42,619 bases of DNA from Acidobacteriota bacterium (GTDB lineage: Bacteria; Acidobacteriota; Aminicenantia; Aminicenantales; Saccharicenantaceae). The stretch is taken from assembly GCA_029553365.1 (NCBI GenBank), contig JAKPCG010000144.1, positions 1-42,619 of the forward strand, read 5' to 3'. Positions 30,903 to 40,767 of this stretch are shown here, piece by piece. A program made the translations under genes and the position numbers. Below the pieces are notes generated by a model. That model did not search any database and had not been told where the DNA came from. It worked only from the letters and a program-made list of their open reading frames with translations. Positions within the stretch are counted from its first letter, which is position 1. The number at the start of each line of letters is the position of its first letter.

Positions 30903-31841
30903 ATGAATTCTGAGTCAAAAGAGTCTGGAGAGAAATATCGTCAGACGGGTTTTCAATCTTTTTTCCAGGGCAGACCTGATTTCCACTTAAACTGTAGAAC
31001 CGTAACTGGAATTTTATATTTAGCTTTCTTTTTGATTCTGGCCACTTTTTGCTTAATGAGCTTCTCAGCTTGTAAATCCGGTTCTAAGCAAAACGAGATT
31101 GTCATTGCTGGCTCAACCAGTATCCAGCCTTTCGCTGATGAATGGGCTGAGCTTTTCATGAAAAAAAATTCAAAGGTGACAATTAATGTTCAAGGGGGTG
31201 GTTCAAGCGGTGGCATCATGGCGGTCAAAGAGGGAACAGCTCAGATCGGAATGTCGTCGAGGGAGCTAAAAGAGGATGAAAAGGATTTGATTGAAATCAC
31301 GGTAGCTTATGACGGCCTGGCCATTATTGTCCATCCTGCCAATCCTGTTGATAATCTGAGCCTGGAGCAGGTTAGAAGCATTTTTGCCGGGGAAATAACC
31401 AACTGGAAAGTTCTTAATGGTAACGATAAGGCCATAACGGTAGTGGTCAGGGAAGAAGGATCAGGCACACGTGGAGCTTTTCAGGAAATGGTCATGGGCT
31501 CAAGGAGAATCACTAAAAAGGCTATTGTAGAAGATTCCAATGGAGTGGTCAGGGAAATTGTTAGCCGTGACAGCAATTCAATAGGCTTCATATCTCTTGG
31601 TCTGGTAGATCATAGGGTAAAGGCAATTGCCCTCGACGGCCTTCAGCCATCAGAAGAAGCCATTATTCAGGGGCATTACCATCTTCGACGGCCGTTTTTA
31701 TTTTTGGTCAGGGAAGAACCACAAGGTCTTATTAAAGAATTTATAGACTTTGTGTTATCAGCTGACATACAGTCTATGTTACCGCAGGAGGGACTTATTC
31801 CTGTTAAAACGATTGCGACTGAAGAAAGTTTCCAGGACTAA
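30903..31841 (+). CDS. pstS: Phosphate ABC transporter substrate-binding lipoprotein PstS
   Basis: PstS captures inorganic phosphate in the periplasm and hands it to PstCA. This 312-residue protein has an unusually long polar N-region (about 36 residues) before the hydrophobic signal segment, and a lipobox-like SFSAC (Cys57). The phosphate-binding loops IAGSTSIQPFADEW, NVQGGGSSGGI, GMSSRELK and REEGSGTRGAF are typical of PstS. The long N-region may mean a later start, but no better codon with a ribosome site is visible. It opens the operon pstSCAB1B2-phoU, with pstC nine bases downstream. Confidence 0.92.
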   Translation: MNSESKESGEKYRQTGFQSFFQGRPDFHLNCRTVTGILYLAFFLILATFCLMSFSACKSGSKQNEIVIAGSTSIQPFADEWAELFMKKNSKVTINVQGGGSSGGIMAVKEGTAQIGMSSRELKEDEKDLIEITVAYDGLAIIVHPANPVDNLSLEQVRSIFAGEITNWKVLNGNDKAITVVVREEGSGTRGAFQEMVMGSRRITKKAIVEDSNGVVREIVSRDSNSIGFISLGLVDHRVKAIALDGLQPSEEAIIQGHYHLRRPFLFLVREEPQGLIKEFIDFVLSADIQSMLPQEGLIPVKTIATEESFQD

Positions 31842-31850
31842 GGGAATAAG

Positions 31851-32714
31851 ATGATGAGCAAGTCCAAACCCGATGACCGGTTAATTAAGCTCAGTCTGCT
31901 GATGGTAGCTCTTACTGCCATCACAGTTCTGGCTGTCATTACGATTTTTATTTTTGAGCAGGGTTTGCCCATCATGCTGAAATATGGTCTGAAAAACTTT
32001 CTTTTTGGCCAGGACTGGTATCCATCTGAAAAAAGCTTCGGTCTGCTGCCCATGATTGTGGGCTCGCTTCTGGTCACCCTGGGAGCTCTGTTGATCGGTG
32101 TTCCTTTAGGGCTGGCCAGTGCTATTTTTTTGACAGAGTTTTCGAGCCGCCGGCTCTCGCGTTTTTTAAAACCAGTCATTGAATTGCTGGCCGGCATTCC
32201 TTCTGTTGTTTATGGCTTTCTGGGTCTGATGTTTCTGGTGCCTTTTATCCGGGAAAATCTGGGCGGTCCGGGCCTATCGGTTCTGGCCGCTTCAATTATT
32301 CTCGGTATTATGATTTTGCCCACAATTATCAGCATTTCCATTGACTCCATCAGGGCTGTTCCTGACTCTTACCGGGAAGGCTCGATCGCCCTGGGAGCGA
32401 CTAAGTGGCAGACGGTCAGGATGGTGGTGTTACCAGCTGCCCGTTCTGGTCTGGTAGCGGGGATTATTCTGGGCATGGGAAGGGCCATTGGCGAAACCAT
32501 GGCAGTTATTATGGTTGCTGGCAATGCGGCCGATCTACCTGCCTCCTGGCTGGCTCCGGTCAGAACCCTAACTTCAAACATTGCTCTGGAAATGGCCTAT
32601 GCCAGCGGTGAGCACCGTCAGGCGTTGTTTGCGACCGGAGTTGTTCTTTTTGTTATTATAATGATCCTGAATTTCCTGGCCAATCTGGCCGCCAGAAAAC
32701 AATCTGGAAGATAA
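31851..32714 (+). CDS. pstC: Phosphate ABC transporter permease PstC
   Basis: PstC is one of the two inner-membrane subunits of the phosphate importer. This 287-residue protein has six hydrophobic helices. The cytoplasmic coupling loop is YREGSIALGATKWQTVRMVVLPAARSG, and GMGRAIGETMAV is the conserved PstC/PstA motif. EQGLPIMLKYGLKNFLFG after the first helix is usual for PstC. It lies nine bases after pstS and eleven before pstA. The start ATG ATG has a GGAATAAG sequence upstream; either Met is possible. Confidence 0.95.
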   Translation: MMSKSKPDDRLIKLSLLMVALTAITVLAVITIFIFEQGLPIMLKYGLKNFLFGQDWYPSEKSFGLLPMIVGSLLVTLGALLIGVPLGLASAIFLTEFSSRRLSRFLKPVIELLAGIPSVVYGFLGLMFLVPFIRENLGGPGLSVLAASIILGIMILPTIISISIDSIRAVPDSYREGSIALGATKWQTVRMVVLPAARSGLVAGIILGMGRAIGETMAVIMVAGNAADLPASWLAPVRTLTSNIALEMAYASGEHRQALFATGVVLFVIIMILNFLANLAARKQSGR

Positions 32715-32725
32715 TAGGGGGAAAA

Positions 32726-33580
32726 GTGACGAGAAAATTCAGGCTAAGACCGAGAGCCGAACAAAAAGTTGTCCAATTTTTTCTCTATTTGTTGACCTCT
32801 CTGGCCATTCTGGTCCTGGTGTTTATTCTGGTTGTTATCCTGAAAAATGGTTTGCCTCAACTCAGCCTGGAATTCCTGACCAAAAATCCTGTTCATATGG
32901 GGAAAGAGGGCGGCATCTTCTCAACCATTGTCGCTACTATTTATCTTACTTTTATTGCTTTGCTGGTCGCCACACCCCTGGGAGTAGGCACGGCTATTTA
33001 TCTGACCGAATATACCTTTGAAGGGAAAATCACCAGGATTATCAGGTTTGGAGCTGAATGTCTGGCCGGCATTCCTTCCATCATCTTTGGCCTTTTTGGC
33101 TTTATTCTTTTTGTCAACAAGCTAAAATTTGGCTGGTCAATTTTGAGCGGTGGTTTGACCCTGGCTTTTATGGTCCTTCCAACCATTATCAGGACCAGCG
33201 AGGAGGCGATTAAGAGTGTCCCGGCTGCTTATCGTCTGGTCAGCTATTCTCTCGGTAGCACCAGGTGGCAAACCGTGACCAGGGTTGTCCTGCCCTCGGC
33301 AGCTCCAGGCATTGTCACCGGCGTGATTTTGAGTATAGGCCGGAGCATCGGAGAAACGGCGGCGGTAATCTTTACAGCTGGTAGCGCTCTCCATCTTCCC
33401 TCATCTATTTTTTCTTCAGCCAGAACCATGTCTGTTCATTTTTACATTCTGGCCAGGGAAGGTATTTCTATGTCCAAAGCTTATGGAACAGCGGCAGTTC
33501 TGGTTATTTCGATTCTTTTGATTAATATCGTGACTTACTATTTAATGGGCAAATATATAAGACAGTCATCGTCGGAATAA
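32726..33580 (+). CDS. pstA: Phosphate ABC transporter permease PstA
   Basis: This is the partner permease of PstC. The 284-residue protein starts at GTG, supported by AGGGGG five bases upstream. It has six hydrophobic helices, the coupling loop YRLVSYSLGSTRWQTVTRVVLP, and SIGRSIGETAAV. The loop FLTKNPVHMGKEGGI after the first helix is typical of PstA. The C-terminus is cytoplasmic and short. The gap to pstB1 is 49 bases. Confidence 0.95.
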   Translation: MTRKFRLRPRAEQKVVQFFLYLLTSLAILVLVFILVVILKNGLPQLSLEFLTKNPVHMGKEGGIFSTIVATIYLTFIALLVATPLGVGTAIYLTEYTFEGKITRIIRFGAECLAGIPSIIFGLFGFILFVNKLKFGWSILSGGLTLAFMVLPTIIRTSEEAIKSVPAAYRLVSYSLGSTRWQTVTRVVLPSAAPGIVTGVILSIGRSIGETAAVIFTAGSALHLPSSIFSSARTMSVHFYILAREGISMSKAYGTAAVLVISILLINIVTYYLMGKYIRQSSSE

Positions 33581-33629: not shown

Positions 33630-34388
33630 ATGAAAGACATTGCTATCCAGGTCATAAATTTCAGCCATTTCTATGGCCAGCAGCCGAGTTTGAAGAATCT
33701 CAACCTGGACATTTACCGGAAAGAAATACTGGGCATTATCGGGCCAGCCAGGAGCGGTAAATCAACTTTTTTAACCTGCCTCAACCGATTAAATGATCTT
33801 GTTCCAGGCTCCAGGGTTTCGGGTAAGATCCTGGTTGATGGACTTGACATTTATCAGCCAGAGGTGGAAGTAGCCGCCCTGCGGCGGCGGCTGGGAATGG
33901 TTTTTGCCACGCCGGTTCCGCTGCCCATGAGCATTTACGATAACATCGCCTTTGGCCCCAGACTCCAGGGTCAAACTGATCGCCAGGAACTTGACCACCT
34001 AGTCGAGGATTGTCTGGAAAAAGCTGGCTTATGGGCAGAGGTTAAGGACCGCTTGAAAACCAGCGCTTTAAAGCTCTCCGGTGGGCAGCAACAGCGGCTG
34101 TGCCTGGCTCGTGTCCTGGCTCTTAAACCAGAGTATATTCTGCTGGACGAACCGACCTCAGGCCTTGATCCTATTTCCACCATGAAAATTGAGGATACAC
34201 TGCTGCTGCTCAAAAAGGACTATACAATTGTTCTGGTGACTAACAATACCAAACAGGCTGCAAGGGTAGCCGATCGGACGGCTTTTTTCCTGATGGGCGA
34301 ACTGGTAGAAGTGAATGAAACGGATATTATTTTTACCAGGCCCTCTGATAAACGGACGGAAAATTATATTGAGGGAAAATTCGGCTAA
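33630..34388 (+). CDS. pstB: PstB paralogue 1: phosphate ABC ATPase lacking Q-loop Gln and H-loop His
   Basis: The 252-residue protein is PstB by overall sequence and operon position. Walker A is complete though unusual (GPARSGKST, residues 38-46), the signature is perfect (LSGGQQQRL, 149-157), and Walker B with its catalytic Glu is intact (ILLDEP, 170-175). However, the Q-loop glutamine is Ala93 (MVFATPVPLP instead of VFQxPNPFP) and the switch histidine is Asn205 (LVTNNTKQAAR instead of VTHNMQQA). Such a subunit could bind ATP and complete a partner's site, but would probably not hydrolyse ATP well itself. The gene is followed by a 177-base gap and pstB2. Confidence 0.93.
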   Translation: MKDIAIQVINFSHFYGQQPSLKNLNLDIYRKEILGIIGPARSGKSTFLTCLNRLNDLVPGSRVSGKILVDGLDIYQPEVEVAALRRRLGMVFATPVPLPMSIYDNIAFGPRLQGQTDRQELDHLVEDCLEKAGLWAEVKDRLKTSALKLSGGQQQRLCLARVLALKPEYILLDEPTSGLDPISTMKIEDTLLLLKKDYTIVLVTNNTKQAARVADRTAFFLMGELVEVNETDIIFTRPSDKRTENYIEGKFG

Positions 34389-34410
34389 AAGTTAGAAAGG
34401 AGAAAATTAA

Positions 34411-34448
34411 CTGCTACCAGGTAGCAGCAACGTTTAAATTATTTAAAC
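34411..34448. repeat. Two adjacent palindromes between pstB1 and pstB2
   Basis: CTGCTACC-A-GGTAGCAG (34411-34427) is followed four bases later by GTTTAAAT-T-ATTTAAAC (34432-34448). Both are perfect inverted repeats with single-base centres. Such tight centres suit protein dimers better than RNA hairpins. They lie 22 bases after pstB1 and about 118 before pstB2, next to an AAAGGAG that has no start codon. Confidence 0.5.
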
Positions 34449-34565
34449 CAAAATTAACCAAAAGCAAAAAAATGATTAATGCCACGGAGATAAAATAATA
34501 GAGCTAAGTGGTTAGAAAAATGAGAAGAGTCACAGGAAAGAATGAAGACCCGGAGGAAATAGAAA

Positions 34566-35339
34566 ATGTCTGAACTGGTTACCTCTGAAAATATAATTGA
34601 GGTCAGGTCGCTTCAGGTTTTTTACGGTCTGTTTCAGGCGTTAAAGAACGTGAATATTGATATCCAGGCCAGAAAAATTACAGCTCTGATAGGTCCCTCT
34701 GGCTGCGGCAAATCAACTTTTCTCAGGACACTGAACCGCATGAATGACCTGATTGAAGGAAGTAGAACTGAAGGCCGGGTCATTTTTGACGGAAAAAATA
34801 TTTTTGATGGAGATACGGATTTGCTGGAACTGAGGAGAAGAATCGGCATGGTTTTTCAGCGTCCTAATCCTTTTCCTCTTAGCATCTTTGATAATGTCAC
34901 CTATGGACTCAGAGTTCACGGTCAGACGGATCGAACCTTAATGGAAGAAAGGCTTTTCCATAGCTTGCAGGCTGTCAATCTCTGGGATGAAATCAAAGAC
35001 CGCCTGGAAGCCAATGCCTTGAGTTTGACTGGAGAACAACAGCAACGATTATGCATCGCCAGGGTTCTGGCGCTAGGACCCGAGGTGGTCTTGATGGACG
35101 AACCCTGTTCTGCTCTTGATCCTACCGCCACGGCTAAAATCGAAGATTTAATGTATCAGCTGAAACAAAAGTATACTATAATTATCGTCACTCATAATAT
35201 GCAGCAGGCAGCCCGGGTCTCTGATTATACCGGTTATTTTTTACTGGGTGAGCTGGTTGAATTTGGCCAGACCGATCAAATTTTTACCAGTCCCAGGGAT
35301 AGACGAACTGAAGATTATATCACCGGGAGGTTTGGCTGA
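34566..35339 (+). CDS. pstB: PstB paralogue 2: phosphate ABC ATPase with degenerate signature motif
   Basis: The 257-residue protein is canonical PstB at Walker A (GPSGCGKST, residues 43-51), Q-loop (Gln98 in [10 protein letters not shown]), Walker B/D-loop ([12 protein letters not shown], Glu179) and H-loop (His210 in VTHNMQQA). Its ABC signature is altered: LTGEQQQRL (154-162) in place of LSGGQQQRL, putting an acidic residue where the second glycine should touch ATP. The changes complement those in PstB1. GGAGG lies nine bases before the ATG. phoU follows after 42 bases. The family role is to power phosphate import through PstCA. Confidence 0.93.
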
Positions 35340-35381: not shown

Positions 35382-36050
35382 ATGACCAGATATTTTGATG
35401 AGGAATTGTTAGAACTTAATAAAAAGATTCTGGAGATGAGTGGGGAAGTTGAAGACTCTATCGGGCTGTCGGTTCGAGCCCTCAGAGAGCTGAGTAGAAA
35501 ACTGGCAGAAGCAGTTATTCAAGGAGATAGGCGCATAGATGATATGGAACTGGAAATAGAGGAGAAGTGCTTGAATATAATTGCGCTCTACCAGCCGGCG
35601 GCGGCTGACCTGCGGTTTGTGGTCATGTCGCTGAAAATAACAACCGATCTGGAAAGAATAGCTGACCTGGCTGTTGATATTGCCGAGCGAGTGCTAGAAC
35701 TTGCTGACCAGCCGCTGCTCAAACCTTTAATTGACATTCCCAAGCTGGCTACTCTGGCTCAGGGCATGGTCCGGGATGTCATCAATTCCTTCGTCAATAA
35801 AGATACAGATCTGGCCCGCTCAGTCATTTTGAGAGATAATGAGGCTGATGAATTAAGGAATCTGGTTCAATCAGAACTGATAAATGATTATATGAAAAAA
35901 GACGCCACTACTGTTCCTCGGGCTATTCCTCTCCTGCTGGTGGCCAGGCATTTGGAGCGGATCTGCGATCACGCTACCAACATTGCTGAGGATGTCATCT
36001 ACATGGTCAAAGCAGAAGTGGTCAAACATCGGCCAGAAAGTCTAAAATAA
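35382..36050 (+). CDS. phoU: Phosphate transport regulator PhoU
   Basis: PhoU links the state of the Pst transporter to phosphate signalling. This 222-residue all-helical protein has the two three-helix repeats of the family. It starts with RYFDEELLELNKKILEMSG, and its metal-binding segments include ERIADLAVDIAERV and ERICDHATNIAEDVIYM, each with the E/D-x-x-x-D pattern. GAGGAG lies about six bases before the ATG. It is the last gene of the pst operon. No phoR/phoB pair is in the window. Confidence 0.95.
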   Translation: MTRYFDEELLELNKKILEMSGEVEDSIGLSVRALRELSRKLAEAVIQGDRRIDDMELEIEEKCLNIIALYQPAAADLRFVVMSLKITTDLERIADLAVDIAERVLELADQPLLKPLIDIPKLATLAQGMVRDVINSFVNKDTDLARSVILRDNEADELRNLVQSELINDYMKKDATTVPRAIPLLLVARHLERICDHATNIAEDVIYMVKAEVVKHRPESLK

Positions 36051-40693: not shown

Positions 40694-40767
40694 TCGGGAC
40701 GAGCGGATTTGAACCGCTGACCCCATGCACCCCAAGCATGTGCGCTACCAGGCTGCGCCACGTCCCG
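40694..40767 (-). tRNA. tRNA-Pro (anticodon GGG)
   Basis: On the minus strand a 74-base cloverleaf is complete. The acceptor stem CGGGACG pairs with CGTCCCG with discriminator A. The D stem is GCGC with loop AGCCTGGTA, the anticodon stem is CATGC/GCATG with loop TTGGGGT, and the T arm is AGCGG/CCGCT with loop TTCAAAT. The anticodon GGG reads proline codons CCC and CCU. CCA is not encoded; a run of T follows the 3' end. The 5' end is 24 bases downstream of the MerR-like gene, so the two are probably cotranscribed. Confidence 0.96.

Follow-up and report, generated by a model that had tools for sequence, protein, structure and literature searches.

Two oppositely degenerate PstB subunits as a candidate one-site phosphate importer ATPase

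Can a phosphate importer run on two ATPase subunits that each lack part of the catalytic machinery? The question is raised by a 42,619-nucleotide stretch of Acidobacteriota DNA (hereafter the window), which forms contig C134 of a 74.5% complete draft genome. Its pst phosphate transport operon contains two adjacent and unlike pstB genes, pstB1 and pstB2. An earlier reading made from the letters alone (the sequence-only reading) had proposed that their products form a heterodimer with a single complete ATP site. From motif patterns and comparisons among relatives, we put at roughly 85% the probability that PstB1 and PstB2 are obligate partners in the ATPase of a PstSCAB importer, a heterodimer in which one site works and the other is degenerate.

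Motif states of the two PstB subunits

In ATP-binding cassette (ABC) proteins each ATP site combines the Walker A/B motifs, Q-loop and H-loop of one subunit with the signature motif of the other (PMC7756269). The two genes and their relevant motifs, the latter read from the codons, are as follows.

33630..34388, + strand: pstB1 (252 aa), degenerate Walker A, Q-loop and H-loop, signature LSGGQ intact
33741..33767, + strand: PstB1 Walker A GPARSGKST, with Arg41 in place of the second Gly
33906..33908, + strand: PstB1 Ala93 codon GCC replacing the Q-loop Gln, within MVFAT (from 33897)
34074..34088, + strand: PstB1 signature LSGGQ, proposed to pair with the PstB2 core
34242..34244, + strand: PstB1 Asn205 codon AAC replacing the H-loop His, within LVTNN (from 34233)
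34566..35339, + strand: pstB2 (257 aa), Walker A/B, Gln98 and His210 intact, signature LTGEQ degenerate
35025..35039, + strand: PstB2 degenerate signature LTGEQ (TTG ACT GGA GAA CAA), acid at the fourth position

The codons bore out every residue named in the sequence-only reading, namely Ala93, Asn205 and an intact LSGGQ in PstB1, and Gln98 (CAG), His210 (CAT) and LTGEQ in PstB2. Replacement of Gly by an acid at the fourth signature position is a classic loss-of-function lesion, as in CFTR G551D. Two features of PstB1 had gone unmentioned: the Arg41 change in Walker A, and a score of 341.7 bits, slightly below the NCBI PstB cut-off of 343.2 (PstB2 scored 395 bits, well above it). Both proteins are PstB family members, yet each is without some canonical ABC motifs. 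PstB1 also carries LLDEP and SGLDP, and the Walker A Lys and Walker B Glu are present in both subunits.

All of the motif losses fall in one composite site, and the site made of the PstB2 core and the PstB1 LSGGQ is complete and invariant in all paired loci. PstB1 has lost the Q-loop and H-loop residues but kept [LI]SGGQ, and PstB2 shows the reverse, as would follow from selection acting on a single composite site. The other site had been described as lacking Gln, His and a good signature. That description holds; the altered Walker A can be added to it, although the site retains its catalytic Glu.

Strict pairing of the two types across phyla

The split was then followed in relatives, most of them metagenome-assembled genomes. 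The search took in all 34 genomes of the window's family, and profile searches covered 297 and 396 genomes of its phylum (overlapping draws); for a Melioribacter record, 245 genomes of its class and 346 of its phylum; and 246 genomes of the phylum of a Thermoguttaceae-titled record (Planctomycetota by record title only). Motifs were then read at the loci so recovered. A reverse search with a PstB2 profile covered 127 genomes of the window's class, after which 40 more loci were read. Every tandem pair read within the window's family had the identical motif split. The surveys yielded 151 PstB1-type open reading frames (ORFs; 91 distinct) and 153 PstB2-type ORFs (93 distinct), which occur in Acidobacteriota (Aminicenantes and others), the Melioribacter class (Ignavibacteria) and the Planctomycetota-titled phylum. 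In the window's phylum the PstB1 type was present in 28 of 396 genomes at the thresholds used, and in the third phylum in 9 of 246.

Co-occurrence of the Ala/Asn type with the acid-signature type, which the sequence-only reading had offered as a check, was confirmed in both search directions: 150 loci carried adjacent PstB1 and PstB2, and the four unpaired cases all lay at contig ends. Among the 127 class genomes and 40 further loci, no PstB2 type was found without PstB1 except at contig ends. PstB1 was upstream of PstB2 in 100/100 loci where order was tallied, and the order PstC-PstA-B1-B2(-PhoU) was conserved across loci.

All 91 distinct PstB1 sequences had Ala for the Q-loop Gln, Asn for the H-loop His and [LI]SGGQ, and nearly all had SGLDP. 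In the 93 distinct PstB2 sequences the Gln and His were always kept and the fourth signature residue was always acidic, save that one sequence ends before its His at a contig end. Their signatures were LTGEQ, LSLEQ, LSGEQ, LPLDQ, LSAEQ, LTLEQ, LSLEE, LALDQ, LLPDE, LSPEQ, LSGEA and LSSEQ. By comparison, 159 of 162 other PstB ORFs had every motif intact, the exceptions being a PstB1 cut short by a contig end (L285), a PstB with Asn for His (L161) and a divergent paralogue (L146). No such pair was found at the threshold used in 170 Bacillota genomes or in 130 genomes of the phylum of a Methanosarcina record (L111); the best-scoring matches read in each were canonical, and weaker members may be missed.

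A read error or local oddity at these codons, which would have undone the proposal, was rejected because the same states recur in every pair of the family and beyond. Nor did any relative of the pair in these lineages have both copies intact. The codons themselves vary, with Ala93 encoded by GCC, GCG, GCT or GCA and Asn205 by AAC or AAT; this freedom at synonymous positions indicates that the odd residues are maintained by selection. Within the window's genus the median ratio of nonsynonymous to synonymous substitution rates (dN/dS) was about 0.05 for each gene, a strong constraint, although many pairs are close to saturation at synonymous sites and the value is therefore imprecise. PstB1 might instead be a decaying duplicate whose changes are neutral, and the loss of several motifs is what such decay would look like. 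Purifying selection on PstB1 as strong as that on PstB2 already refutes decay, and Ala and Asn are invariant in at least three phyla despite the free synonymous codons. We therefore give neutral decay almost no credence.

In a quick tree of 97 rows with the motifs masked (midpoint-rooted for drawing only), the PstB1 types formed one clade and the PstB2 types another, with Shimodaira-Hasegawa-like approximate likelihood ratio support of 97 and 92, respectively. A joint clade of both types was not rejected (approximately unbiased test, p = 0.67), a result compatible with a single old duplication. PstB1 and PstB2 distances were correlated (Mantel r 0.83, 0/5000 permutations), and both subtrees placed one Acidobacteriota family (f6) next to the same Melioribacter-class genome set. 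The correlated distances and the agreement on f6 in both halves suggest that the pair was transferred as a unit. The pair thus resembles asymmetric ABC proteins in having one complete composite site, several losses in the other, and two distinct nucleotide-binding domain (NBD) subunits that are co-inherited, as judged from the paired loci and parallel clades.

Arg or Lys in the PstB1 Walker A accompanied a PstB2 acid signature only where that signature was xxGEQ, and was limited to the window's family. A coupled change of this residue facing the signature acid was considered and rejected as confounded by descent.

The PstA coupling helix and a proposed mechanism

The ORF list of the window gives the gene order pstS-pstC-pstA-pstB1-pstB2-phoU, consecutive and all on the + strand. 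The genes around the pair are as follows.

30903..31841, + strand: pstS, phosphate-binding protein (TIGR02136, 253 bits against a cut-off of 206.6)
31851..32714, + strand: pstC, permease with canonical coupling helix YREGSIALGATKWQ (TIGR02138, 317.7 bits, above cut-off)
32726..33580, + strand: pstA, permease with altered coupling helix YRLVSYSLGSTRWQ (TIGR00974, 279.4 bits, above cut-off)
35382..36050, + strand: phoU, phosphate signalling protein (TIGR02135, 214.1 bits, above cut-off)

All four thus exceed their NCBI family cut-offs within a single operon, as a PstSCAB system should, and the PstB1/PstB2 system would be expected to carry out ATP-dependent phosphate uptake.

A second asymmetry was found in PstA. 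Its coupling helix reads RxVSFSLG in paired systems only and REG[AS]xxLG elsewhere. The residue after the EAA Glu was Val in 44 of 48 distinct PstA helices of paired systems, compared with 0/83 other PstA and 1/31 PstC of paired systems. The EAA acidic residue (E/D) was lost in 28/48 of these PstA helices and kept in 28/31 of the PstC helices. The single PstC with Val (L020; G017:C37) is a frame in the PstC slot upstream of PstB1 whose coupling helix resembles that of PstA; it may represent a split or duplicated pstA.

The Q-loop segment of PstB1 is also altered, reading FAxPxPLP as opposed to FQxPNPFP in PstB2 and other PstB proteins. In this transporter class the Q-loop segment touches the coupling helix. 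As the PstA helix and the PstB1 Q-loop segment have both changed, PstA probably contacts PstB1, and PstC PstB2.

From these sequences we infer the following course of dimerisation, docking, nucleotide handling, ATPase activity and transport. The working site would consist of the PstB2 Walker A/B, Gln98 and His210 with the PstB1 LSGGQ. The degenerate site would consist of the PstB1 core, without Q or H and often with an altered Walker A, and the acid-bearing PstB2 signature; it probably binds ATP without hydrolysis, clamp-like, as in heterodimeric exporters. PstB1 would dock beneath PstA with its co-diverged coupling helix and PstB2 beneath the canonical PstC, fixing the orientation, and one ATP would be hydrolysed per closure. 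Both pstB genes should then be essential to transport by this system, as the sequence-only reading had supposed, and their stoichiometry obligately 1:1.

Four observations weigh against this interpretation. AlphaFold2 applied to a read-through PstB1-PstB2 fusion gave two well-folded domains (mean predicted local distance difference test score 83, predicted template modelling score 0.48) and no confident dimer. The PstA change is common by descent, so that Fisher values overstate independence and show association only. The catalytic Glu and Walker A Lys kept in PstB1 leave room for slow hydrolysis at the degenerate site, and a third, canonical PstB encoded on another contig of the same genome (C90) could in principle partner either subunit. 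On these last two grounds the heterodimer might be asymmetric with a degenerate site that also hydrolyses slowly, or might pair flexibly with the canonical PstB. Q, H and the signature Gly are however lost jointly in one composite site of every pair, and such a variant appears improbable.

A single-site heterodimer, if real, would mean that a binding-protein-dependent importer of a basic nutrient can run on one ATP site built from two subunits with separate genes and opposite defects, and that such an arrangement is stable across phyla. Neither pstB gene is then predicted to function alone, and a PstA with the matching coupling helix should be indispensable. A broader proposal, to which we assign even odds, is that these systems form a widespread importer subclass with a catalytic PstC/PstB2 half and a non-catalytic PstA/PstB1 half, using one ATP per cycle at the single shared site, with the other site serving as a permanent clamp or sensor and the pair moving between phyla as a unit. 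With such a pair, nature provides a setting in which to study the persistence of degenerate sites and the number of ATPs that an importer requires. For annotation the pair is a caution against treating every second 'pstB' gene as a redundant copy.

Known transporters and genomic context

The PstB sequences of the solved PstSCAB importer (entries 9k3s, 9k3x and 9k3y) align end to end with the present pair. That importer has a single PstB gene, whereas here two PstB differ and one composite site is degenerate. Tandem pstB genes do exist in Firmicutes, as the sequence-only reading had stated, but they are of a different kind. Enterococcus faecalis pstB1/pstB2 and Bacillus subtilis PstBA/PstBB likewise lie adjacent in one pst-phoU operon, and the B. 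subtilis proteins have been modelled as a heterodimer (PMC11466899). Motifs are intact in both copies in E. faecalis (PMC12096839) and at locus L114, unlike the reciprocal losses here, and identity with the Firmicutes arrangement was rejected on these motifs. The tandem pairs at L167, L171 and L174 also had all motifs intact in both copies. Since these three were found in the Melioribacter class, that class holds both kinds of tandem pair.

The E. faecalis work bears on whether PstB1 could be a non-catalytic regulatory subunit, for example one signalling to PhoU or a kinase, with no composite site and with PstB2 homodimers that tolerate the odd signature driving transport. Excess PstB2 alone can restore import in E. 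faecalis (PMC12096839), and phoU adjoins the pair in the window. Both E. faecalis copies have every motif, however, and substitution of PstB1 by excess PstB2 is something the motifs here would not permit. A regulatory role also leaves unexplained why [LI]SGGQ is kept in 91/91 distinct PstB1 despite the loss of Q and H, and why an acid occurs at the fourth signature residue only in PstB beside PstB1. We consider it unlikely, if slightly less so than the slow-site or flexible-pairing variant.

The proposed heterodimer has its closest parallel in the exporters TM287/288, TAP, ABCC1 and Pdr5, where degenerate Walker and H motifs in one NBD and a degenerate signature in the other (LNVEQ in Pdr5; PMC7756269) leave one consensus site. 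In those exporters the Walker B Glu is usually altered; here it is kept, the Q-loop Gln is lost and the system is an importer. Asymmetric sites had been attributed to exporters, correctly but too narrowly, as the importers RbsA and NupO also have one degenerate ATP site (PMC11466899). Unlike the separate Pst subunits, their two NBDs are fused in a single chain, their lesions affect the Walker A Lys, and they belong to another importer fold class. No described phosphate importer with a reciprocal PstB pair was found in the open-access library to which our search was confined (subscription papers lay outside it), in line with the sequence-only reading; the E. faecalis authors report no other published study of tandem pstB paralogues (PMC12096839). 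One-site importers as such are already known, but a split-subunit one-site PstB seems undescribed.

The PstB1/PstB2 system is the second Pst system of its genome. Contig C90 (L144, G000:C90, 1523-6575, minus strand) carries a canonical pstS-pstC-pstA-pstB-phoU operon followed by an OmpR/PhoB-like response regulator, and its PstB has every motif intact. Cellular phosphate import thus need not rely on the PstB1/PstB2 pair.

In the window the spacer between pstB1 and pstB2 is 177 bases (34389-34565), long for an operon; in a sister genus the two genes almost touch. No structured RNA was found in the spacer, which folds no better than shuffles (z -0.89) and has no Rfam match. The sole Rfam match within the window is a tRNA gene at 40694-40767 on the minus strand.

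Two of the exceptional PstB proteins can be described further. The one at L161 (1501-2286, minus strand) is canonical, with Gln and LSGGQ intact, except that its H-loop His is replaced by Asn (IVTNN). The divergent paralogue at L146 (G016:C5, 6026-9627) has the motifs LLSQK, LSIGQ and VVTHI and belongs to a third pst-like cluster in a relative, beside pstS-, pstC- and pstA-like genes.
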